Assembly (NCBI GenBank): GCA_017940545.1
Contig: JAGAYI010000019.1
Location: 1 to 32,244, forward strand
Direction of reading: 5' to 3'
Length of the DNA stretch: 32,244 nt
Source of the DNA: Prevotella sp.
Lineage (GTDB): Bacteria; Bacteroidota; Bacteroidia; Bacteroidales; Bacteroidaceae
The notes under the pieces are model-generated. The model saw nothing but the letters and a program-made list of their open reading frames with translations, was not told the origin of the DNA and did not search any database. The position numbers and the translations under genes were made by a program. Positions within the stretch are counted from its first letter, which is position 1. Every line of letters starts with the position of its first letter. Of this stretch, positions 7,017 to 19,670 are shown piece by piece.

Positions 7017-7484
7017 ATGACATTTCAACGCTTGTTTACATTCATTTTTTCGGCTTTCCTGGCTACAAGCCTCTACGCACAGAGTGAAGACACCAATACC
7101 GAAAACGAAGAAAAAACGGAACAGGGCACCGAAGAGGGAACTGAAGAGGGCACAGAGGAAGGCGACAGCGCCAAGACAACAGTAAGCTACATTGAGATTC
7201 CCAACGCCTTCTCGCCCAACCAAGACGGCTACAACGACGACTACCACGTCACGAAACACGCCAACATCACCGAGTTCCGCGCCATCATCTTCAACCGTTG
7301 GGGCCAGAAACTCTACGAGTGGACCGACATTAACGGGAAATGGGACGGCACCCATAACGGACAGCTTGTCAAGCAGGGAACCTATTTCGTTCTTATCAAC
7401 GCGAAGGGCTCCGACGGAAAAGTGCACACCATCAAACGTGACGTAAACGTTCTTTATCGGGTAGCAAACAATGAACAACAATAA
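7017..7484 (+). CDS. Short secreted protein made of a T9SS type B sorting domain (CHU_C-like)
   Basis: The 155-residue protein has a signal peptide (1-22, ending SLYAQ), an acidic low-complexity stretch (about 23-52) with three GTEE repeats, and then a C-terminal domain at about 58-147. That domain carries the signature of gliding-motility-associated sorting domains: IPNAFSPNQDGYNDDY, FNRWGQKLYEW, WDG, GTYFVLI. In the family this domain routes a much larger passenger through the type IX secretion system, but here no passenger exists. The frame is open from 6936; ATG at 7017 is chosen because the signal peptide begins there. It overlaps uvrA by 14 bp, so the two are translationally linked. It may be a sorting-domain remnant or a small surface protein. 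Confidence 0.8.
   Translation: MTFQRLFTFIFSAFLATSLYAQSEDTNTENEEKTEQGTEEGTEEGTEEGDSAKTTVSYIEIPNAFSPNQDGYNDDYHVTKHANITEFRAIIFNRWGQKLYEWTDINGKWDGTHNGQLVKQGTYFVLINAKGSDGKVHTIKRDVNVLYRVANNEQQ
7125..7160 (+). repeat. 12-bp coding repeat encoding GTEE units
   Basis: Three consecutive 12-bp units encode Gly-Thr-Glu-Glu, with synonymous changes between units (GGCACC, GGAACT, GGCACA). Unit-number changes would keep the frame and only alter linker length. Confidence 0.75.
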
Positions 7485-10413
7485 CAGTCAGGATGAAAAA
7501 ATAAATGTCTGGGGAGCACGGGTGCATAACCTGAAAAACATTGACGTCGAGATTCCACGCCAGTCGCTCACCGTAATTACCGGACTCAGCGGTTCGGGCA
7601 AGTCAAGCCTGGCCTTCGACACCATCTTTGCCGAAGGGCAGCGCCGCTATATCGAGACTTTCTCTGCCTACGCACGCAACTTCCTGGGCGGACTGGAACG
7701 GCCCGATGTCGATAAGATAACCGGTCTGTCGCCCGTCATCAGCATTGAGCAGAAGACGACCAACAAAAACCCCCGCTCCACCGTAGGCACCACCACCGAG
7801 ATTTACGACTTTCTGCGACTGCTCTATGCCCGTGCCGGAAAGGCCTACAGCTACGTGACGGGCGAACCGATGGTGAAATATACGGAAGAACGCGTGCTCG
7901 ACATGATACGGCACGACTATGCCGGACGGAAAATCATGATTCTGGCACCCGTCGTTCGCAGCCGTAAAGGACATTACCGCGAACTCTTTGAAAGCATGCG
8001 CCGCAAGGGCTACCTGACCGTCCGCGTTGATGGAGAGCTGCAGGAAATCGTCCAGGGCATGAAGGTGGACCGCTACAAGAACCACAACATCGAGGTGGTC
8101 ATCGACAAACTTGTGCTGCCACCGGCACCTGCTGAAGGAGAGCCAAGTGCAGAACCCGGCGAACGCCTGAAGAAATCAGTATCCATCGCCATGAAACAGG
8201 GCGAAGGACTCCTGATGATTCTCGACGCGACGGATGCCGGAACAACGTCAGGAAAGACGAAAGGAGGAATCAAATACTTCTCGAAACGACTCATGTGCCC
8301 CACGACGGGAATGTCCTACAACGACCCAGCCCCCAATAACTTCTCGTTCAACTCGCCAATGGGAGCCTGCCCGCGCTGCAAGGGACTGGGCTACGTCAGC
8401 GAGATTGACCTGGAGAAGGTCATTCCAAACCGTAACCTGAGCATCTACGACGGAGCCATCGTCCCGTTGGGAAAATATAAAAGCCAGATGATTTTCTGGC
8501 AGATTGATGCCATACTGCATAAATATGACCACACGCTGAAGACACCCGTGAGCGATATTCCTGACGAGGCATTGAGCGAAATACTCTATGGCTCGTTAGA
8601 AAATGTGCGCATAGACAAGGAGCTGGTACACACCTCCAGCGACTATTTTGTGGCATACGACGGCGTGGTGAAATACCTGCGCTCCGTAATGGAAAACGAC
8701 GACAGCACCAGCGGACAGAAATGGGCAGACCAGTTTCTGGCCGAGTGTGAGTGTCCGGAATGTCACGGACAACGCCTGAACCGCGAAGCACTCAGCTACA
8801 AAATATGGGACAAGAACATTGCCGAACTGGCTGCAATGGACATCAGCGAGCTACGGCAATGGCTCGACGAGCTGGACAGAGAAGGAACGACACACCTCGA
8901 CCACCAGCAACGACAGATAGCCGGCGAGATTCTCAAGGAAATACGCACCCGACTGGACTTCCTGCTTGACGTAGGACTTGACTACCTGGCACTCAACCGC
9001 CAGTCAGCCAGCCTCTCAGGCGGCGAGAGCCAACGAATACGACTCGCCACTCAAATCGGTTCGCAACTGGTCAACGTGCTCTACATCCTCGACGAGCCCA
9101 GCATCGGACTGCATCAGCGCGACAACGAAAGACTGATACACTCGCTCAAGGACCTGCGCGACATTGGCAACACCGTCATCGTAGTAGAACACGACAAGGA
9201 CATGATGCTGGCAGCCGACCACATCATAGACATCGGTCCCCGCGCAGGACGCAAAGGCGGCGAAGTCGTGTTCCAAGGAACGCCGGCAGAAATGATGAAA
9301 GCCGACACCCTCACTTCCAAATACATCAAAGGTGAGCTCACCGTTTACGAGCATTCCGGATCATCCGATTATTCCGAATCATCCGATTATTCCGAACCAT
9401 CCAAGCCCTCAGGAAAGAAAATCACCCTACGCGGCTGTCGCGGCAACAACCTGAAAAATATTACCGTAGAGTTTCCACTCGGCAAACTCATCCTCGTCAC
9501 AGGAGTCAGCGGAAGCGGAAAGTCAACCCTCATCAACGAGACTCTCTACCCCATCCTCTCCAAGCACTTCTACCGCTCACTCAAAAACCCCATGCCCTAC
9601 GACACCATCGAAGGACTGGAAAACATCGACAAAGTCATCAACGTTGACCAAAGCCCCATCGGCCGCACGCCACGCTCCAACCCCGCCACATACACCGGCG
9701 TGTTCAGCGACATACGTTCCCTGTTCGTCCATCTGCCCGAAGCACAAATACGCGGTTACAAGCCGGGGCGTTTCTCGTTCAACGTCAAGGGCGGACGCTG
9801 CGAAACCTGCGGCGGCAACGGCTACAAGACCATCGAGATGAACTTCCTGCCCGACGTGATGGTGCCCTGTGAGGCATGCCACGGGAAACGCTACAACCGC
9901 GAAACCCTGGAGGTACGATACAAAGGCAAGTCCATTGCCGACGTACTCGACATGACCATCAACCAGGCCGTAGAGTTCTTCGAAAACGTGCCCGACATCC
10001 TGCGCAAAATCAAAACCATACAGGACGTCGGACTCGGCTACATCAAACTCGGACAGCCTTCCACCACCCTCAGCGGCGGCGAGAGCCAGCGTGTCAAGTT
10101 AGCCACCGAGCTGTCGAAGAAAGACACAGGCCGCACACTGTACATTCTCGACGAGCCCACCACTGGCCTGCACTTCGAGGACATCCGCATACTCATGGGT
10201 GTGCTGCGGCAACTGGTCAGCCGGGGCAACACCGTCATCATCATCGAGCACAACCTGGACGTCATTCGGCAGGCAGACTACATCATCGACATGGGACCAG
10301 AGGGTGGTCGCCGCGGTGGGGAAGTGCTATCTACCGGAACACCCGAGGAAATAGCACGAAGCAAAAAGGGCTTTACTCCCCGCTTCCTGAAACAGGAAAT
10401 GAACATGAAGTAA
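7471..10413 (+). CDS. uvrA: Excinuclease ABC subunit A
   Basis: UvrA is the damage-sensing ATPase of nucleotide excision repair; with UvrB it scans DNA for bulky lesions in the cytoplasm. The 980-residue protein has two ABC modules: Walker A at 38-46 (GLSGSGKSS) and 678-686 (GVSGSGKST), and ABC signatures LSGGES near 515 and 867. Zinc-binding cysteines are at 276 with 300/303, at 426/428/431, and at 777/780 with 800/803. The UvrB-interaction region ([17 protein letters not shown]) is present, so it looks like a canonical UvrA rather than the short UvrA2. It is about 30-40 residues longer than usual, partly through a Ser-rich linker at 625-650. The start at 7471 lies inside the preceding gene's last codons. 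Confidence 0.97.
9361..9396 (+). repeat. Perfect 18-bp duplication in the uvrA inter-domain linker
   Basis: Positions 9361-9378 and 9379-9396 are identical (TCATCCGATTATTCCGAA), encoding SSDYSE twice at residues 631-642, between the two ABC modules. Related half-units flank it on both sides (ATTCCGGA before, CCATCC after). Confidence 0.9.
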
Positions 10414-10445: not shown

Positions 10446-11591
10446 ATGACAGCAAAACGTCTCTTCATCACCCTGTCCGTCATGCTGACCGTCGTCCCGT
10501 GCATGGCTCAGGAACACCTGCCCTATATGACAGAACAACTAGTGGACACCACACAAGCAGAGACCCTCGGACTGCAAAAGCCGCAGCAACTCACCACCAC
10601 CACCATTTTCTCTCCCGACGAGTCAGAGCCACACTATGCCAACGGAGCCGTCCTGACCGCATTCAAAGGCTCATTGTTCTGCATGTGGCAGTCATCGCAA
10701 ACCGACGAGGACGCACCGGAAACCTGCGTCATGTACTCCGTCAGCACCGACAAGGGACAAACATGGTCGCCCCCTACCCTGCTCGCTTCGGCCACCGACT
10801 CCACCTACTGCACGTCGGGCGGCTGGCTCAGCACCCCCGACACGCTTGTAGCCTACATCAACACCTGGGCTCCTGGCACAGAAACGGCCTGTGGCTACAC
10901 CCGCTATGTCACAACAACCGACGGACGCAACTGGTCCACGCCACAGCACGTTACAATGGCCGACGGCAGCCACATGGACGGCATCATAGAACAAGACCCA
11001 CTCGTGCTACCCACCGGGCGCATCGTTGGGGCAGCCCACTTTCAGCCCGGACTTCACGTATCGCCCATCTATACTGACGACCCCACAGGTCGCCACGGAT
11101 GGAAACGCGGAGACATGCAGTCCCACGACCACGGCAAACAGTCGCAAGAGTTGGAGCCCAGCCAGTATCTGCAGCACGACGGCTCGCTCATCATGGTGTT
11201 CCGCGACCAACAAGGCTCTTATAGAAAACTGGCCGCACGCAGTACCGACGATGGAGAAACATGGACGACACCCATGCCCACCAACATTCCCGACGCACGA
11301 GTCAAGCAGAGCGCAGGAAACCTGCCCGACGGCACTGCCTTTCTCATCGGCAACCCCACGGGCAACAAGCGTCGCTATCCGCTGGCCGTGCTCTACTCTG
11401 AAGACGGTATCTGCTTCGACCGCGCCTTCCTGCTGCGTGCCGGAGGCAGCGACCTGCCCCGTCAGCGTTGGCCCGGCCGTTACAAGACGTTAGGATACAG
11501 CTATCCGAAAGCCCTCGTTTACGGCGGGAAGCTCTACGTAGTCTATGCCACCAACAAGGAAGCCATTGAGTGCAGCATCCTGACATTATAA
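10446..11591 (+). CDS. Secreted sialidase-like (BNR/Asp-box) beta-propeller protein
   Basis: The 381-residue precursor starts with a signal peptide (1-22, ending PCMAQ). Asp-box motifs of the S-x-D-x-G-x-x-W type occur at about 100-107 (STDKGQTW) and 266-273 (STDDGETW), with a degenerate one in between (TTDGRNW). This is the six-bladed propeller fold of the sialidase superfamily. I do not see the FRIP motif or a clear arginine triad of proven GH33 sialidases, so activity on sialic acid is uncertain and another glycan substrate is possible. It begins 32 bp after uvrA and is probably co-transcribed. The long upstream frame overlapping uvrA is spurious; ATG at 10446 gives the signal peptide. The coding end directly abuts an IS remnant but looks natural (LYVVYATNKE near the C-terminus). 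Confidence 0.75.
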   Translation: MTAKRLFITLSVMLTVVPCMAQEHLPYMTEQLVDTTQAETLGLQKPQQLTTTTIFSPDESEPHYANGAVLTAFKGSLFCMWQSSQTDEDAPETCVMYSVSTDKGQTWSPPTLLASATDSTYCTSGGWLSTPDTLVAYINTWAPGTETACGYTRYVTTTDGRNWSTPQHVTMADGSHMDGIIEQDPLVLPTGRIVGAAHFQPGLHVSPIYTDDPTGRHGWKRGDMQSHDHGKQSQELEPSQYLQHDGSLIMVFRDQQGSYRKLAARSTDDGETWTTPMPTNIPDARVKQSAGNLPDGTAFLIGNPTGNKRRYPLAVLYSEDGICFDRAFLLRAGGSDLPRQRWPGRYKTLGYSYPKALVYGGKLYVVYATNKEAIECSILTL

Positions 11592-11610
11592 CTTGACTTC
11601 TCGCCTTACT

Positions 11611-12609
11611 GAGGCAGTAGGAGATGATGGCCACGTGTATCTGTATTCGGACTGCATTTTCAGATTCTCCCCAGAAACGCTTGACTTGGAGGTGTTGCTT
11701 GATCCATTTGAAAAAGAGCTCCACCTGCCACCTATATTTATAGAGCAGGGCAATGTCCTTTGCGCTGAGGTAGAAGTTGTTCGTGTAGTAGACGAAGCTT
11801 CGATGAAGCCCTGGCGCATAATAGACAATTCTTCTGATAACACCGGGATACTTCTCCTGATTCTCCTTTTTGGTGAAGCGAATGGTCTAGTCTTTGAGCA
11901 CGTTGTCTGTTCCATCGAGAATACTCTCGCCATCGACAATCTCGTAAGCAGGCTTACCTTTCTCCCTGATGATGAAAAAAGCCCCGAACACGTTGATGCG
12001 ATAGAGTCTGACGAGGTCAAAGTATCCTCTGTCAAACACATAGCGCGCCAAAGGCTCGTATGTGAACCAGTCCATCGAGTTGACATCATGCACCTTGGCA
12101 TTGGTAATTCTGTAGAATACGGGTATCTCAGTAACGATGTCAATCTGAGTATGGATTCTGATGCCAGACTTCGTGCTTCTAAACTCTGCCCATCTGAATA
12201 CGGACATGCACAGGTCGATGGTAGTGGAGTCAATAGCATAGAATTTGCCATGCAGTTCAAACTCTTTTGTAATGCGTCTGGCTTGGGCAATGGACACCAT
12301 GTAGAAAGCGAACTCCTCAAAGATACGATGGTCTCTGAGAGCATTGGCCTTCGACAGCATCTGTCTGTTGATAGGCTGGTGGCCAAATCCGAGGTGTTTA
12401 GACTTCTTGGCATGGGCGGTTGTTATATCAGTGAGTTCCCTAAGGCTTCCACAGCCCATAAGCTGACCGAACATCAGAACCAGCAAATGGTTCCAATGAG
12501 ACATCGACCAACCCTTGATCCTGTCGTTGTACTTGGCGAGTATGCGCCTGAACTGCCTCTGAGGGAGAAACTGTACGATCTGTGCAAAAACGAATGTCCC
12601 TATATGCAT
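11611..12609 (-). pseudogene. IS4-family transposase, interrupted by a stop and truncated at its 3' end
   Basis: From the ATG at 12609 the protein resembles the Bacteroidales IS4 transposase group: an N-terminal domain starting MHIGTFVFAQIVQFLP, FYAIDSTTIDL with the first catalytic Asp, and VFDRGYFDLVRLY with the second. A TAG at 11887-11889 ends the frame after 240 residues. The same frame then continues with TIRFTKKENQEKYPGVIRR and on to YRWQVELFFKWIKQHL, which carries the catalytic Glu, so this is a nonsense mutation, probably CAG to TAG, not a frameshift. Homology stops at about AIISYCL (11611), where the reading runs into the antisense of the sialidase-like gene. The C-terminal end and right IS boundary are therefore missing and the copy should be inactive. 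Confidence 0.85.
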
Positions 12610-12795: not shown

Positions 12796-12861
12796 GTTTA
12801 CCACTCGCTCCTAAGTTCGCTTTGCTTACAAAGAAAGATCATCAATTATTTCGGAATAATC
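12796..12861 (+). repeat. 66-bp direct repeat, copy A, downstream of the RAYT-like gene
   Basis: By hand alignment 54 of 66 positions match copy B at 14055-14120 without gaps. The shared core includes CCACTCG, TCGCTTTG, TTACAAAGAAAG and ATCAATTATTT. The two copies bracket the RAYT-like gene in the same orientation, 1259 bp apart. Confidence 0.8.
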
Positions 12862-12925
12862 AGCAGACCCCGTGATTCTCAGAGCACTGCTGGTTTTCTG
12901 TGGTGCTCTTTTGTTTTGCTTCTTG

Positions 12926-12999: not shown

Positions 13000-14013
13000 T
13001 CATCTCTCGCAAATTACCCTTGCCATCGCGTTCAGCTCCAGGCATTGGCCCCTTTTGATAACAATCTTCTCATTATGATGCTCCCAAGGTGCCAGAATCA
13101 GCAACTGCCCTTTGGCACAGGCATCCATTCTCTTTCCGCCTGGCTTTGCCAAATCCGTAAAACCATTCTCTTGCAAATAAATGAGCGGCAGTCCCTCCTC
13201 GAATGCCGCCCTCATAATAGCTTTCTCGCCCTTTGAGATAGCTGGCGATACAAGCACCGCACCTTGCCTTGCGGCTCTAAGGCATTCGTTCAGCTTTACC
13301 TGTAAATCACTCTCGCTGATGCTCCTTGAGCACTGCACCTGTATTTTCAAGGGCTTTTCTAACAAAAACCGATTACCAATAGCTGAAAAACTGAGACCTG
13401 CGAACGCCAACCCCCTCTGCACCCTAAACAAATCAGGATTCTCCCTCTTCATCAGCAGTCGCCTCGGGTTATCCTTCAGGTAAGTCAGCCAGCGCTCCAG
13501 CTGCCCATCCCTCAGCAAAATCTGGTCATTAAAGCCCTTCGCAAACAGCAGCCCGTTCTCGCGGCTCCTCTGTGCATGTTGCTGTGCCACAGTAACAAAC
13601 TCAACGGGCATCACCTCCCGAAACGCCTTATTGCAGGCCTGCTTAACCCCCAGTAGCACCTTACCTAACGGTTTCTCCATCCGCTCTTTTACAAATAGAA
13701 TGGCGTGCAGATGGTCAGGCATCATTTGTAGTGCCACCACTTTTACCTCCAGATGATGGCTGCTGATGGACTGCCAAATCTCCGCCACAGCCGCCCCTAA
13801 TGGCGATAACTCGACATGAGGCGCCTCTGGTGATGGCTCTACGGCCTCACTTCTCCCCATCACTTGACCAAACAGCGGCCTCCGCCCCTCCGTCACCATA
13901 GTTATCATATACATCCGCCGAGCGGTGTAGTCGTTATCCACACAGCGACGCAGCATCGAGGGTTTCTTCTCGCCAGCATATGCCTTCTGTTTTTCAAACG
14001 TTTCTCTATCCAT
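13000..14013 (-). CDS. RAYT/IS200-like HUH transposase with an extra C-terminal domain
   Basis: The N-terminal half (about residues 30-190 of 337) resembles Y1 (IS200-like) and REP-associated tyrosine transposases: MMPDHLHAIL supplies the HUH metal-binding pair (H101, H103), and LERWLTYLKDNPRRLL supplies a candidate catalytic Y178, in the same context as the RAYT motif YxxxNP. These enzymes nick and join single-stranded DNA at hairpins. Residues about 205-337 form a second domain (GAVLVSPAISKGEKAIMRAA, LPLIYLQENGFTDLAKPGGK, GQLLILAPW) with the feel of a Rossmann-like, DprA/LOG-type fold; I cannot name it. The gene is bracketed by 66-bp direct repeats and carries palindromes. A -7 box TAAATTTG lies at 14034-14027 on the minus strand. 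Confidence 0.75.
   Translation of the reverse strand: MDRETFEKQKAYAGEKKPSMLRRCVDNDYTARRMYMITMVTEGRRPLFGQVMGRSEAVEPSPEAPHVELSPLGAAVAEIWQSISSHHLEVKVVALQMMPDHLHAILFVKERMEKPLGKVLLGVKQACNKAFREVMPVEFVTVAQQHAQRSRENGLLFAKGFNDQILLRDGQLERWLTYLKDNPRRLLMKRENPDLFRVQRGLAFAGLSFSAIGNRFLLEKPLKIQVQCSRSISESDLQVKLNECLRAARQGAVLVSPAISKGEKAIMRAAFEEGLPLIYLQENGFTDLAKPGGKRMDACAKGQLLILAPWEHHNEKIVIKRGQCLELNAMARVICER
13577..13597. repeat. Internal copy of the palindrome within the RAYT-like gene
   Basis: TGTTGCTGTG, C, CACAGTAACA: the same palindrome as at 12969-12989 with one stem mismatch. It encodes part of FVTVAQQH (about residues 139-146). The flanking bases TGCATG before and CTCAACG after are also shared with the downstream copy. 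Confidence 0.85.
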
Positions 14014-14054
14014 AGCAATCGTACTGCAAATTTACAAATTTATTTCCTATTTCT

Positions 14055-14120
14055 GTTTGCCACTCGACTCTAAGGTCGCTTTGTTTACAAAGAAAGTTAA
14101 TCAATTATTTAGATATGATC
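14055..14120 (+). repeat. 66-bp direct repeat, copy B, upstream of the RAYT-like gene
   Basis: This is the partner of 12796-12861. It covers the last codons and stop of the TIR gene (stop at 14109-14111) and the space before the RAYT-like start. Its centre can fold as CTTTGT-TT-ACAAAG. Confidence 0.8.
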
Positions 14121-15041
14121 ATTGGAGTCCCCACGTACATCATTATATATCTTATATTCAAACTCTAATAAGTGATTAATATCCTCAGTTCGCCTGACAA
14201 CTCTCAGAATCTTGAGTGCAGCAAACTTATGCTTACGATTTTCCATCAAAACTATTTCTCCAACATTTACAGATTTGGTACGTGAGCTGAAATCAAAGTT
14301 AATAAAATCATTAGGAGAAGGAAACTCCTTATATGCAGGGTTATATCCTAATCTTAACACATGGTCTCTATAGCAATGAATAGAATTTTCTCCACATTCA
14401 CTCCATTGAGTGTTAAACTCATAATCACCTTCACCAATTATATATGATCCGCTATTCCTTTTATAATCAAAAGACACTTTCCCTTCTAAAAAGGGTATAT
14501 GAAAAATTATCTTCTCGACATTCAGTTTTGTTGTTATCTTGTCAGAAATCTCAGTTGAAATAAAAGGATTCTTTCCCAGTGGCGGTTTCTTCTTAATATC
14601 TTCATCGTAGATGCGTTCTAGTAGTTCCTGATAGCAATCAAAATAATTCCCATTATCAAAATCAACATATCTCAACCCCGATAAAAAAGTCGGAACTTTT
14701 TCTGTTCCGCTGTTACCTTTAACGATAGGAATTATATAGCGTTTATCACTATTATTCATCATTTCTGACGCAATAATTCGTTTCTCATAGCCAGCACCTC
14801 CGATTCCTCCGTTTGCTTTTTCTATGTATTTGTCACTACAAATACACAAAACGAAGTGGGAATCTGTAAGACCTTGCTCCATGAAGAATGAAAGATCATT
14901 GCCCAACCTCGCATCCCATTGGTCTAAAATTACGTCTAACCCATGTTTACGAAGGTTTGCTGCAAGTTTCAACACCCACTTTTTATGCTCCTCACTATCC
15001 CATGCATAAGATACAAAAGCTTTTTTGTTGTCTGGTGTCAT
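14109..15041 (-). CDS. TIR/SEFIR-domain protein, candidate defence effector
   Basis: Residues about 5-150 of 310 form a TIR_2/SEFIR-type domain: KAFVSYAWDSEEHKKWV at the start, LRKHGLDVILDQWD, LTDSHFVLCICSDKYIEKA and GYEKRII, where E86 is the likely catalytic Glu of TIR NADases. The C-terminal half (about 165-310) is a beta-rich region (GSYIIGEGDYEFNTQWSEC...) of a kind seen after such domains in other Bacteroidota proteins; it may sense a trigger or ligand. Bacterial TIR proteins commonly act in phage defence by depleting NAD+ or making signal nucleotides; whether this one does is inference. No Thoeris ThsA partner is present. The base composition is AT-rich compared with the flanks. It lies 102 bp after the BRCT gene on the same strand, with no clear promoter in between. 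Confidence 0.8.
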   Translation of the reverse strand: MTPDNKKAFVSYAWDSEEHKKWVLKLAANLRKHGLDVILDQWDARLGNDLSFFMEQGLTDSHFVLCICSDKYIEKANGGIGGAGYEKRIIASEMMNNSDKRYIIPIVKGNSGTEKVPTFLSGLRYVDFDNGNYFDCYQELLERIYDEDIKKKPPLGKNPFISTEISDKITTKLNVEKIIFHIPFLEGKVSFDYKRNSGSYIIGEGDYEFNTQWSECGENSIHCYRDHVLRLGYNPAYKEFPSPNDFINFDFSSRTKSVNVGEIVLMENRKHKFAALKILRVVRRTEDINHLLEFEYKIYNDVRGDSNDHI

Positions 15042-15143
15042 ATGTGTGCTTTTATTGTTGTCCGTTCAACTTTATATTATAATATTTGAGCTATCCACTA
15101 ATCATAGTTTAGTTCGCCAGAGTTAAACAGTAAAAACAAATCC

Positions 15144-15950
15144 TTATTTTTTATTTAGCTTATCTTCTAACATGATATCCAGTAACCTTGTCGTACTTTC
15201 ATCTGGGAATGTCTCCAGCCTCTTTTTTACCCATGTAATGAAGTCCGATTCGCTGGTAAATTGAATATTGAAAAACTTGGCTGTACTTTCATTGTAATGT
15301 TTCTCGATATTTGTAATTACCTGATCCTTGATACCTTGCTCCAGTAACCGCAAGGTCTCATCACTCAACATGATGACATTGGTTTCATCATAGTATTCGG
15401 TATTTGCATAGCCTCCAAAATTTCCGATGATTTGACGAAGAACCCCCATGTCTGTATTTGGCTTGTTGGGGACAAATATTTCCATACCATAAATTGGATT
15501 GTCCTCGCCATAGACAAGAGGCGATGAACAACGAATACCTGTATCTTCATCATCGTCATCTTCTATATAAACTGGAGGTGTCCAGTTATAATATGACATA
15601 TCTATGCTTATCTGCTTACGAGGTGCAAGTGGAGTCTCATATCCATTATAATGACCCTTGAATATCTCTTCCAATTCAGATTCACCTATCTTTAAAGGCT
15701 TCCATCCGTCATGTTCATAGCAGAGCAAACGATTTAAAAGTTCTTGTTTTACTTCATCCCCAATAACAAGGATTTGGGTGTCACGAGTTAGACCTTCCTT
15801 ACTTTTCTCAGAAGCTCCAAACTCTTTTACTTTCCGTACAAGTGCGGCACGGTTTCTGAACTTTCCAATGAATCCAACACGACGGTCGGTCAGAGGGTTC
15901 TGCTGACTAATGGCGCTATCGCCAAATATATCCAATTGTTGAGTACTCAT
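15144..15950 (-). CDS. BRCT-domain protein with a possible sliding-clamp motif
   Basis: The 268-residue protein begins MSTQQLDIFGDS; QLDIF matches the pattern of beta-clamp-binding pentapeptides (QLxLF-like). A BRCT-like domain follows at about 20-98 (RRVGFIGKFRNRAALVRKVK ... DTQILVIGD), then an acidic stretch (EDDDDED, about 130-136), then a possible second BRCT-like unit at about 150-235 (GMEIFVPNKP ... IIGNFGGYANTEYYDETNVI). It ends with a charged helical tail. The frame is open to 16052, but that part overlaps the exonuclease gene; ATG at 15950 leaves a 10-bp gap, so the two are co-transcribed. BRCT domains bind DNA ends or protein partners; here the partner may be the BRCT of the exonuclease or the clamp. 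Function is otherwise unknown. Confidence 0.65.
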   Translation of the reverse strand: MSTQQLDIFGDSAISQQNPLTDRRVGFIGKFRNRAALVRKVKEFGASEKSKEGLTRDTQILVIGDEVKQELLNRLLCYEHDGWKPLKIGESELEEIFKGHYNGYETPLAPRKQISIDMSYYNWTPPVYIEDDDDEDTGIRCSSPLVYGEDNPIYGMEIFVPNKPNTDMGVLRQIIGNFGGYANTEYYDETNVIMLSDETLRLLEQGIKDQVITNIEKHYNESTAKFFNIQFTSESDFITWVKKRLETFPDESTTRLLDIMLEDKLNKK

Positions 15951-15960
15951 AAAACTGCTA

Positions 15961-17856
15961 TTATATTTGTTTGATGATTTCTTTGAATTCTTCTTCAGGC
16001 ATAATGCGGGCACCAACTTCCTGTGCTTTCTGCATCTTAGATGGTCCAGCATTATAGCCTGTTATCAGTATGTTTGTTTTCTTGTTCACTCCATCTTTAA
16101 TGATGGCACCAAGTTCGTTCAACTTGTGTGCATATTCTTGACTATCACTTTTTGCAAAGCCTGTCAGCACAACAACTTGGTTCTTGAAAGGATTATCGGC
16201 AACACTTTCCAAGTCTGTACGTTGCACCTTGTCCTCAGGATTATATTTCTGTTTAGATGTAGTTGGCGTTTCTGCAACTTCAACAGTTTCACCTTCGCTA
16301 AGTATCTTTTGGAATAGAACCATCAAATTGCCGCTCATTTCTGCATCGGCCAAAGCATTATGATGATTGTTGCCAGCAATGCCAAATCGCTTACATACCG
16401 TGTCAAGTTGATGGGTTCCAGGTCCTTCTTCAGTGATTCCAAGTTTAGCCTCTACTTGTCTCGACAGTACAAGTGTGTCGAAAATGTTCTCAAAATCAAG
16501 TTTTGTCTCAATTCCATAGAATGCACTTGCATCTCTTATGCATGCTCTTTCTACACATGCATTATGTGCTACAAGAGGTAAACCATCAGCAAAGCGTTCC
16601 ATATCTGGTAATACTTCCTCAAATGTCTTCGCGTCTTTCACCATTTCCTCTGTCAAACCATGAATCCAAGTCAGTACGGTACCACATTTTCCAGGATAAT
16701 CGAATGGTGGACGAATGAGAGTATAGAATCTATCTACGATTTCGCCATCAATATATTTAACCATACCGACAGAACATGCCGAAACACGCTGAGGAAAAAG
16801 CGTTTCAAAATCAATTCCGACGAAAGATTTTGGTAGGGACTTAACATCATATTTGCGATAATTGATTCTTCTTAGTGTCCTTGCGCCAACCTTTCTAACT
16901 TTGATTTCTACAGAGCCATTTCTTTTGATTACTTGGACTTTATACCCATCAACGATTTCATCGTACTTGTATATGTTATAGTCATAAATCCCGTACTTCT
17001 CTTTGAGTCCTTCGTAAGAAACAGTTTTGCCATTTGAAATAATGCACTCGCCAACAAGCAGAATTTCAGAAAGTAACTTATCGTCCATGTCAGGATTATA
17101 ATATTCGCTTAGATATAAAGAGATCTTAACAAGATTACCATTGTCAGCTTCTACGTCAGCATAACGGAATGGATAATGAGAATAATTTAGAGGAATATTC
17201 ATTCGTCCGTTAATCAGTTCTCCATTATCCATGCATACATGTTGGAGGTTAAATCCGAAAAAATCTGTATCCCAATAATCATTAGAATATGTGTCGCTAT
17301 TCAAAATCTTCTGGATTTTCTCATTCCAATAGTACTGAGCTTCTTCTTTAGCTTTCCTTTCAGCTTCTATCTTCCTTTGCTTTTCTTCTTCTTTTCTTCT
17401 GATAGCATCATCATGTGCCTGCTGTTGGAGCTGGCGCATAAGTTCATTACCACATTCAGGGCATCCACATCTTGAATTCAGTATAGCATAAGGAAGTTTT
17501 ATAAAAGCTCCGTGCTTAGGGCAAATCAACATGATAGGCGAAGTAGAACTTTCGTAAACAAACTCTTCCAATCCAAATTTATTACCAAACTTCTCTTTCA
17601 ATTTGGCAATAAACTTCTCTCCCTTCTCGCATTTGGGGCATCCTTTGCCATCCAAATGCTCACGGGCATAAACTTGAAAATCACCATGAACGGGACACGT
17701 CACCACAACTCGATGCTCACTATTCCTATAGGCCACTTTGCTATAGTCATAGCGGTCACCATAAACCTGCTTGGCCTCTGCTATGAATGATTCCGTTGTG
17801 ACCACTCTTCTGCAGAGCTCCAAACTTCTATTGCCTTGTTTCTCTAACATATCCAT
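15961..17856 (-). CDS. Multidomain DEDDh 3'-5' exonuclease with zinc motifs and C-terminal BRCT
   Basis: The protein (631 residues from ATG 17856; a GTG at 17868 is possible) has five parts. Residues about 22-140 carry two related zinc-ribbon-like repeats: CPVHGDF with CPKC (C54, C73, C76) and CPKHGAF with CGCPEC (C112, H115, C130-C135). A charged coiled coil follows (about 145-175), then an unrecognised middle domain (about 180-340). The exonuclease domain of DnaQ/epsilon type is at about 345-520, with D349 and E351 (IDFET), motif II AHNACVERAC where E436 replaces the usual Asp, and H499/D504 (HHNALADAEM). A BRCT domain closes it (about 558-631: NQVVVLTGFAKSD ... TNILITGY). It would degrade DNA or RNA 3' ends. 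It leads the BRCT-TIR cassette behind a good promoter. Confidence 0.85.
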   Translation of the reverse strand: MDMLEKQGNRSLELCRRVVTTESFIAEAKQVYGDRYDYSKVAYRNSEHRVVVTCPVHGDFQVYAREHLDGKGCPKCEKGEKFIAKLKEKFGNKFGLEEFVYESSTSPIMLICPKHGAFIKLPYAILNSRCGCPECGNELMRQLQQQAHDDAIRRKEEEKQRKIEAERKAKEEAQYYWNEKIQKILNSDTYSNDYWDTDFFGFNLQHVCMDNGELINGRMNIPLNYSHYPFRYADVEADNGNLVKISLYLSEYYNPDMDDKLLSEILLVGECIISNGKTVSYEGLKEKYGIYDYNIYKYDEIVDGYKVQVIKRNGSVEIKVRKVGARTLRRINYRKYDVKSLPKSFVGIDFETLFPQRVSACSVGMVKYIDGEIVDRFYTLIRPPFDYPGKCGTVLTWIHGLTEEMVKDAKTFEEVLPDMERFADGLPLVAHNACVERACIRDASAFYGIETKLDFENIFDTLVLSRQVEAKLGITEEGPGTHQLDTVCKRFGIAGNNHHNALADAEMSGNLMVLFQKILSEGETVEVAETPTTSKQKYNPEDKVQRTDLESVADNPFKNQVVVLTGFAKSDSQEYAHKLNELGAIIKDGVNKKTNILITGYNAGPSKMQKAQEVGARIMPEEEFKEIIKQI

Positions 17857-18011
17857 ATTGGTTTTCACTTCGTTTCCTTCTTTTTATCTTATCTCATCCA
17901 GCACTTTGCCATTACACAAGAAGTACTTAGTCCCTGATAGACACCAAAAGGGGTATGTAAACGTACCGGTTCTTTGCTGTTCATATTGTGTCGTTAGTGT
18001 AATATTCCCTG

Positions 18012-18042
18012 CAAATTTACATAATAATTATGAAAAGACAAA
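18012..18042 (-). promoter_or_regulatory. Promoter of the exonuclease-BRCT(-TIR) cassette
   Basis: On the minus strand TTTG (18042-18039), exactly 19 bp, then TAAATTTG (18019-18012): an ideal Bacteroidota promoter. Transcription would start near 18005, leaving a leader of about 150 nt before the ATG at 17856. Confidence 0.75.
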
Positions 18043-18467: not shown

Positions 18468-19670
18468 TCATCGGTTTTTCACTACGCGATAGTAGTTGAT
18501 GTTGCCATGATTGGTGTGCCCATAACCGAGTTCCTTCAGCGCCAGACCCAGATGTACCTTGGTGCTGTGGCAGCTCTTGACGGAGGGGTATTCATGCTGA
18601 ATGAGTTTCAGCAACTGTCCGCAGCTCATGGGTTTTGTGACTTCTCCCTCATTAGGTTTGCGGAAGCAGCAGCTGACAATTTCAGCGATATCCTTCTGCT
18701 CCATGTAATTGAGGTTCAACTCCTGAATACGGGCTACCTCGCTGTTGTTGAACCAGTAGGGAGCCTTCAACTCGCGGATCTCATGAAGCACCTGTGCATA
18801 GAGCTGATCGTAGTCAATCTCGCCGCCGTTGTCAATGAGCTGTCCCTGCGGGATGGTCAGGCAGATGTAGCGACGGCTACCTGTGGCATCCGTCAGCGGA
18901 TGAGGGTTGTTCGTGGTTGCCACGAAGGAAGCGAAGCGGGGGCGGTCTTCCTGCGAACAGCCATAGATGGGACGGCCGTTGACCTTACTCTTCGAGAGTG
19001 TCTGTTTCAGCGCCGCATGCTGACTGGGACGGATAGCCTCCAATTCATCGAGGTTGACCAAGAGGTTGTTGGTCAGCGCCATCTCCTTGTCAAACTTGTT
19101 GGAGAGGTTCAGGTGGTCAAGGAAATACTGACGCAGATGCGGAGGGAGCAAGCGCACAACGAAGGTGGTTTTGCCACAGCCCTGCGGACCAATCAGCGTG
19201 GGAAGGCACTCGTTGCCATGCAGGGTGTCCATCTGGAGCCAGTGGGCTACCATCGAGCGCAACCAGACGACGAGGAAACCATGCTGTTCCGTGCTGATGC
19301 CGGGCAGTCGGCTGAAGAGACGAGAAACGTGGTTCTGTCCGTCCCACTGGGGCAGATGTTCCAGATAGTCGCCAATGGGATTGAATACAGGCACCTCTTC
19401 TGAATGCATCAGGTCGATGATGAGCGACTTGGGGTTGCCACCCTCGCAAATGTCCTCACGACGAGCTCTGATAATGATGCTGTTCAGGGCTTCCTGTGTC
19501 AGTACTCGCCAGACGGGGGTGTCGTCGCCCTGTGGTTTGGTTGAAAACTCTACTTTCCCGCTCAGCACGTTGCGGCGGAAAAGATAATGATCCTGAAGGA
19601 ACAACTCTACAGAAAGTATTCCTTCCTGTGAAGCTGCAATAGCCTCACCATTTAGAATGGTTTTTGACAT
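18468..19670 (-). CDS. VapE-like (virulence-associated E family) P-loop ATPase
   Basis: The 400-residue protein matches the virulence-associated E family, often paired with a DUF3874-type C-terminus in Bacteroidales. Walker A is GPQGCGKTT (161-169), Walker B is in NLLVNLDELEA (202-212), and a sensor/arginine-finger region follows at about 250-270 (ATTNNPHPLTDATGSRRYI). The last about 60 residues form a small winged-helix-like domain. Relatives are primase-helicase-type replication proteins of phages, satellites and integrated elements; no primase domain is visible here, so this copy looks like the helicase part only. It stands alone, with 87-bp inverted repeats on both sides and its own promoter. 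The GC-richer composition differs from the adjacent exonuclease cassette, pointing to separate origins. Confidence 0.85.
   Translation of the reverse strand: MSKTILNGEAIAASQEGILSVELFLQDHYLFRRNVLSGKVEFSTKPQGDDTPVWRVLTQEALNSIIIRARREDICEGGNPKSLIIDLMHSEEVPVFNPIGDYLEHLPQWDGQNHVSRLFSRLPGISTEQHGFLVVWLRSMVAHWLQMDTLHGNECLPTLIGPQGCGKTTFVVRLLPPHLRQYFLDHLNLSNKFDKEMALTNNLLVNLDELEAIRPSQHAALKQTLSKSKVNGRPIYGCSQEDRPRFASFVATTNNPHPLTDATGSRRYICLTIPQGQLIDNGGEIDYDQLYAQVLHEIRELKAPYWFNNSEVARIQELNLNYMEQKDIAEIVSCCFRKPNEGEVTKPMSCGQLLKLIQHEYPSVKSCHSTKVHLGLALKELGYGHTNHGNINYYRVVKNR

Follow-up and report, generated by a model that had tools for sequence, protein, structure and literature searches.

We analysed contig JAGAYI010000019.1 of a Prevotella sp. 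genome (a 2.2-Mb assembly, 70.5% complete), a stretch of 32,244 nucleotides referred to here as the window, which carries three consecutive genes on its minus strand. These encode a DEDDh exonuclease (15961-17868; 635 amino acids from a GTG, an in-frame ATG four codons later being a possible start), a second protein of the pair, P2 (15144-15950; 268 amino acids, a predicted tandem-BRCT protein and the constant partner of the exonuclease), and a bSEFIR-like TIR/SEFIR protein, hereafter TIR (14109-15041; 310 amino acids), which is probably separate cargo. The gap between the exonuclease and P2 genes is 10 bp and that between P2 and TIR 102 bp. A Bacteroidales-type promoter match (TTTG, 19 nt, TAAATTTG; 18012-18042, minus strand) is located upstream of the exonuclease gene, the pattern TTTG-N-TAnnTTTG having four matches in the window against 0.39 expected. 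GC content is 0.35-0.40 across 14001-18000, compared with 0.45-0.59 in the remaining 1-kb steps. The initial annotation of three same-strand, AT-rich genes behind one promoter is therefore confirmed in its gene coordinates, gaps, promoter match and low GC, and the QLDIF of P2 and the E86 of TIR are present as it described.

The exonuclease has a pair of DUF723-type zinc motifs, followed by a variable middle region, the RNase_T/DEDDh domain and, C-terminally, a BRCT of the RFC1/LigA type, so that the initially proposed architecture of two zinc motifs, a DEDDh domain and a BRCT is borne out by Pfam. The double zinc region was matched in two stretches (17440-17802, minus strand; residues ~23-143), the DEDDh domain (16324-16821, minus strand; residues 350-515) above the cut-off for RNase_T (E 2.3e-14) and the BRCT (15973-16197, minus strand; residues 558-632) with E 2.7e-10. 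The closest solved relatives are the PolC exonuclease for the catalytic part and LigA and RFC1 for the BRCT, which here, in contrast to those two, is fused to an exonuclease. Residues D353, E355, H503 and D508 are kept in 24 of the 26 exonucleases compared, D353 and E355 of the other two lying beyond contig ends. In the BRCT, every one of the 24 exonucleases with this domain has T569, G570 and K611, and 20 have K614. A preference of the RFC1 BRCT for 5'-phosphate ends is described in the accessible part of PMC9293009. The predicted model of the exonuclease had a pLDDT of 73 and a pTM of 0.39 and gave no identification for its middle region; some alignments behind this model and that of P2 included partial proteins from three of the loci fetched for comparison (denoted L0xx and L1xx; here L066, L075 and L078).

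For P2, no family was found above the Pfam cut-off, a BRCT match remaining sub-threshold (E 0.022), and nothing was found at E ≤1 in NCBIfam, PHROGs or PADLOC. A profile of 16 P2 relatives matched the LigA BRCT with the first domain (E 0.0023), and the predicted model (pLDDT 87.6) contains two BRCT-like domains. The top Protein Data Bank (PDB) matches of this model are tandem-BRCT proteins, namely chains of end-joining complexes, Rad4 and TopBP1; we take the first of these to be DNA ligase IV, the name given in 3ii6. Over the whole length, TM scores to the top PDB entries were 0.24-0.28 with large rmsd, probably because the two domains are differently arranged, and single-domain RFC1 chains gave an rmsd of 2.3-2.6. 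A viral fold search returned mainly single BRCT domains, many of them from DNA ligases. By its model, P2 is predicted to be a tandem-BRCT protein.

The clamp-binding-like motif QLDIF occupies residues 5-9 of P2 (15924-15938, minus strand). Among 584 open reading frames (ORFs) of at least 100 amino acids from 47 loci, not deduplicated, Q..[LIM]F starting in residues 1-9 occurred in 25, of which 24 were P2-family rows (four of these repeating the same loci). Some P2-family rows of this control lacked the motif, or their ORF was overlong or missed; the ORFs came from a simple longest-ORF caller, which overlooked the P2 relatives in L024, L027, L028 and L083. This enrichment supports the motif proposed initially. 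A motif-like N-terminus was present in 17 of 19 P2 rows (the starts of L071, L072 and L090 being chosen by the motif), the others being L032, without a motif, and L034, with QQNLF at the very C-terminus. The exact forms QLDLF or QLSLF occur in L023, L029 and L082, in the short forms L113-L115 and L117, and internally in L116 and L033, where QLDLF sits between exonuclease and BRCT. We infer from these sequences that P2 may bind the sliding clamp via a QxxLF-type motif. As a separate observation, L113-L115 and L117 (the latter on a 4.8-kb contig) are short stand-alone P2 relatives that have an exact QLDLF close to the start and, of the two BRCT-like domains, just the second.

A scan of a genome collection located P2 relatives at 19 loci. 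They were found in 17 of 301 genomes of the family and 7 of 249 of the genus (both including that of the window), and in 3 of 45 and 1 of 19 genomes of two further genera, a search overlapping that of the family. The named close relatives are from metagenome-assembled genomes, many of rumen or gut origin, that carry the labels Prevotella, Prevotellaceae or Bacteroidaceae. In all seven P2-positive genomes of the genus an exonuclease adjoins P2. After repeats were counted once (L019=L066, L020=L070, L021=L078, L023=L080, L072=L091, L076=L093, L073=L112), P2 and a DEDDh exonuclease were adjacent or fused at 23 distinct loci, in agreement with the initial proposal that the two belong together. Among these are 14 accessory loci with a close P2 (the window, L065-L075, L090 and L092), one-protein fusions (L078, L116 and, apparently frame-broken, L033), divergent pairs (L032, L034) and one pair in reversed gene order (L118). 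Across the phylum, P2 matches were found in 7 of 395 genomes, the window's included. In L057 (G560, another family of the same phylum; 7444-9137) a gene for a 144-amino-acid BRCT-like protein lies 11 bp before a DEDDh/BRCT gene, a distant candidate pair; five other matches, open frames of 671-1165 amino acids with one BRCT-sized piece each, may be DNA ligases. Literature searches on exonuclease-BRCT pairing found nothing on this pair.

The partners of P2 were compared at 12 accessory loci out of 14, as contig ends cut the exonucleases of L066 and L073, which were left out, and exonuclease identities were measured from the catalytic DxE to the end. The exonucleases fall into three classes, with within-class identities of 67-92% (A), 98% (B) and 72-78% (C); A and C are 49-53% identical, and B is 27-33% identical to either. 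P2 is 63-82% identical throughout the 12 loci, across exonuclease classes that are only 27-53% identical to one another. In the exonuclease tree A and C each form one group, whereas in the P2 tree the classes are mixed: L092 (class A) groups with L074 (class C) at 99/97, and well-supported branches force at least two changes for A and for C. Exchange also affects parts of the exonuclease. L069 and L070 are alike in the N-terminal zinc and middle regions and different in the exonuclease domain, N-termini like the zinc region of the window occur in the class A exonucleases, L069, L109 and L110, and DNA similarity to the window breaks within the middle region in four of five complete class A relatives. 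Furthermore, in L109 and L110 a hydrophobic C-terminal tail (hydropathy 2.62) stands in place of the BRCT; these are related zinc/exonuclease proteins, at 60-63% over the matched part. P2 had no match in the genomes of L110 and L109 (89% and 92% complete), and this joint absence of BRCT and P2 argues that the two interact. The comparisons suggest that the pair is an accessory, recombining unit with P2 as its constant part, and it appears to move between Bacteroidaceae genomes.

Several relatives carry further genes downstream. The order in L065 is exonuclease, P2, zinc-repeat gene and SIR2-like gene (gaps of -4, 11 and 13 bp), and in L110, where P2 is absent, tailed exonuclease, zinc-repeat gene and SIR2-like gene (5 and 52 bp). 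The two SIR2-like proteins are 49% identical and match Pfam SIR2_2, that of L110 above and that of L065 below the cut-off. Homologous zinc-repeat genes follow the exonuclease or P2 in L065, L067, L109 and L110, and a zinc fragment is present in L090; a GIY-YIG domain was above the Pfam cut-off in L110, just below it in L109 and recognised by eye in L065 and L067. In addition, a PDC-M41A-like gene lies near L069. Tailed exonuclease and zinc-repeat gene, joined in L110 by the SIR2-like gene, are a possible cassette of their own (L109, 284-4209; L110, 6085-11058).

We consider it fairly probable that the pair is a two-part accessory exonuclease tethered to the sliding clamp and to gaps or ends of DNA, with TIR separate from it; it is an unnamed, recombining and probably clamp-associated exonuclease unit. 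Exonuclease and P2 would form one two-part machine, in which the N-terminal QxxLF-type motif of P2 would hook onto the sliding clamp, while the two BRCT domains of P2 and the RFC1/LigA-type BRCT of the exonuclease would join both proteins and hold on to 5'-phosphate ends at nicks or gaps. There, 3' ends would next be trimmed by the DEDDh domain through a putative 3'-5' activity. The N-terminal zinc and variable middle regions would set the substrate, which would explain the exchange of zinc, middle and exonuclease parts while P2 stays constant. The most likely use of such a pair would be to degrade or stall invading DNA under replication or repair, with general repair a close second: the sporadic presence (7 of 249 genus genomes), exchange, island location and defence-type neighbours argue for defence, and DNA polymerase I neighbours, the absence of PADLOC matches beside class C pairs and the replication-enzyme relatives argue for repair. 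If P2 does hook exonucleases to the clamp, the result would be an accessory bacterial system whose target is marked by the replication machinery rather than by sequence or modification. Moreover, the swaps found in nature (P2 with three exonuclease classes, a tail for BRCT and P2, a moved motif) are ready experiments on the way in which a nuclease is directed by clamp tethering and DNA-end binding.

Several observations weigh against this clamp-held exonuclease. The Exo II acid is Glu440 in the window and Asp in the aligned PolC residue; Glu is shared by classes A and C, L033, L116, L109 and L110, the remaining exonucleases having Asp, and with Glu instead of Asp the exonuclease activity could be altered. 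By the clamp-binding consensus taken from the accessible part of PMC11139829, QLDIF is near-consensus, with Ile in the place of Leu/Met, and QQDLF has a second residue that is not aliphatic. In L071, L072 and L090 overlong ORF starts were trimmed to the motif-bearing Met, and a clear clamp-like motif was not found in L032, L118 or L057. The exonuclease classes cluster somewhat in the P2 tree (6 changes against a shuffle mean of 8.0, with 7 of 200 shuffles as low), many forks of this tree have weak support, and a long-branch warning applies to the exonuclease tree. L111 keeps a BRCT exonuclease in a genome with no P2 match. P2 relatives of any form are present in 48 of 121 genomes of one other Bacteroidaceae genus, those inspected being mostly stand-alone, so P2 also exists without an adjacent exonuclease. 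In addition, searches of 50,697 phage and 72,556 plasmid records gave no P2 match.

Two further such points bear on a role outside immunity, which is the strongest alternative and, in our estimate, a real if lesser likelihood: the pair would be an accessory exonuclease for DNA repair or replication that trims gaps or proofreads at the clamp and takes no part in immunity, islands being just its carriers. At three loci (L076, L077 and L079; Pfam-confirmed) the pair directly follows a DNA polymerase I gene, and PADLOC gave no match among ten genes beside class C pairs; the relationship to the PolC exonuclease and to the LigA and RFC1 BRCTs points the same way. The class B exonucleases are 74-76% identical to those after DNA polymerase I, and the P2s after DNA polymerase I only 42-49% identical to accessory P2s. 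However, the rare occurrence in the genus and the AT-rich island position fit repair less well, as do the exchange of exonuclease and N-terminal parts and the trading of BRCT plus P2 for a hydrophobic tail, and neighbours of the zinc-repeat/GIY-YIG, SIR2-like and TIR types are more in keeping with conflict systems than with housekeeping repair.

More tentatively, the loci might represent a polymorphic anti-invader system that recognises foreign DNA under replication by way of the sliding clamp, in which a constant, clamp-hooking tandem-BRCT P2 would take interchangeable exonucleases with variable sensor regions, some branches trading BRCT and P2 for a membrane anchor, with optional downstream effectors of nuclease or NADase type (zinc-repeat/GIY-YIG, SIR2-like, TIR).

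The initial annotation had joined the TIR gene to the pair in one three-gene defence cassette. The TIR protein matched Pfam TIR_2 (2.8e-22) and, above the cut-off, SEFIR (2.8e-17), the solved SEFIR domain 5y8e (1.7e-25) and the PADLOC bSEFIR profile (238.5 bits, E 5.7e-71), its N-terminal domain (residues 3-267) covering this profile only partly (37-274 of 412). It differs from Thoeris in that no ThsA match was found in the genes on either side (five proteins scanned), and its match to the ThsB profile was weak (E 0.01). The activity expected of bSEFIR is NAD depletion upon infection; our literature search found no paper naming bSEFIR. In the stretches examined around the 23 distinct loci (up to 18 kb, some much shorter; ~0.7 kb downstream of P2 in L068), a TIR-like (P0003-like) gene adjoins the pair in the window only, on which ground it was rejected as a conserved cassette member; a single unit of all three genes is not supported. 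Homologues that regularly lack the TIR gene and sit in housekeeping loci had been named beforehand as evidence that would tell against the cassette: they do lack the gene, and the three pairs after DNA polymerase I provide the second part of this pattern only partially.

TIR matches were obtained in 9 of 301 genomes of the family and 11 of 198 of the order, with the genome of the window counted in both; in the other genomes no match extends beyond residue 196, and identity is 24-42%. Of the plasmid records, 198 matched, 46 of them over at least 80% of the length. The closest relative found (78%) lies on a Parabacteroides distasonis plasmid among SNF2, N-6 methylase, gene X and AAA genes, a restriction-like locus without the exonuclease-P2 pair; others are 40% (Prescottella and Croceicoccus, with no exonuclease annotated alongside) and 28% (Lactococcus) identical. 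Gene X (304-313 amino acids; L053 6019-6933, L070 8790-9731) comes after P2 in L070 and before TIR on the Parabacteroides plasmid, a placement by which both look like island cargo. Neither copy of gene X had a Pfam match and the L070 copy had no PADLOC match; its HEPN-like appearance was noted by eye only. A gene X remnant inside the 102-bp gap of the window was ruled out, the alignment showing no trace. TIR is probably a bSEFIR-like defence gene of its own, located on the same island as the pair and unrelated to it.

We regard it as unlikely that the three genes are one defence system in which the pair senses phage replication or DNA ends and an NADase-type-fold effector from a variable slot (TIR here, SIR2-like in relatives) kills the cell. 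Such a system would be consistent with the common strand, the single promoter match and the 102-bp gap, in which neither a Bacteroidales-type promoter match nor, on the minus strand, a sigma-70-like promoter or terminator-like site was found, and with the related SIR2-like genes of L065 and L110. Yet TIR accompanies 1 of the 23 pairs, the SIR2-like gene likewise 1 of 23 plus one P2-less locus, neither the class C pairs nor the three DNA polymerase I pairs had a recognisable TIR or SIR2-like gene beside them, and the nearest TIR relatives lie on plasmids in the settings described above, without the pair or with no exonuclease annotated alongside.

Mobile-element remnants flank the block, as noted initially. 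A REP-associated-transposase-like gene (13000-14013; below the NCBIfam cut-off) lies between 67-bp repeats that are 82% identical (12796-12862 and 14055-14121), and its relatives adjoin the pair in L072 and L078. An IS4-type transposase remnant (11586-12609), which reads in more than one frame, was below the NCBIfam and above the Pfam cut-off. The VapE-like gene of the window (18468-19670) shares 74% DNA identity over 1.27 kb with that of L069 (9209-10420), lying upstream of the pair in the former and downstream of it in the latter. That the genes are part of a mobile element and work for it (replication, anti-restriction, rival exclusion) and not for the host is nevertheless improbable, for although the VapE-like and transposase-like neighbours and the frequency of DnaQ-BRCT exonucleases in phages (part of P0002 is matched by 586 records, but 80% of it by none) favour it, P2 had no match in the phage and plasmid records or in viral contigs, where scans with the P2 alignments, the L034 P2 and the tailed exonuclease were unproductive, no integrase was noticed beside the pair (no search was aimed at integrases), and the setting of L034, phage-like by eye, was unconfirmed by Pfam and PHROGs, for which this explanation was rated lower. 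A prophage setting of L034 was rejected, as seven of eight neighbours had no PHROGs match, one matched nothing but families of unknown function, and the sole Pfam match among three scanned was DUF6712.

Among known systems, PDC-S48, a single-gene DEDDh candidate of PADLOC, matches the exonuclease domain (E 1.8e-27 in the window, 1.7e-35 in L069). The best stretch covers only profile 5-173 of 411 (residues 348-526), and P2 is unmatched in PADLOC; the exonuclease was therefore not filed as PDC-S48, which would call for a full-length profile match. No paper on PDC-S48 itself was found in our literature search, the accessible part of PMC11514479 included. PolC/DnaQ-type exonucleases with a BRCT, namely NCBIfam PRK06195 and PRK06063 and phage 'exonuclease' proteins, share the DEDDh domain and C-terminal BRCT, but the window exonuclease scores 102.4 against a cut-off of 373 bits for PRK06195 and 81 against 389 for PRK06063, so that filing under PRK06195 was rejected, and it has in addition the zinc and middle regions and a separate P2 with a clamp-like motif. 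According to the accessible part of PMC12153337, the DexA-like DEDDh exonuclease of HREX alone can protect E. coli against phage T4 and is selective for hydroxymethylcytosine DNA; it provides a precedent for the defence reading, its likeness to the window pair is taken here as one of general exonuclease type, and BRCT or clamp partners are unmentioned in that part of the text. Finally, stand-alone P2 relatives with a clamp-like N-terminus include those of L022, L025, L026, L029 and L031.

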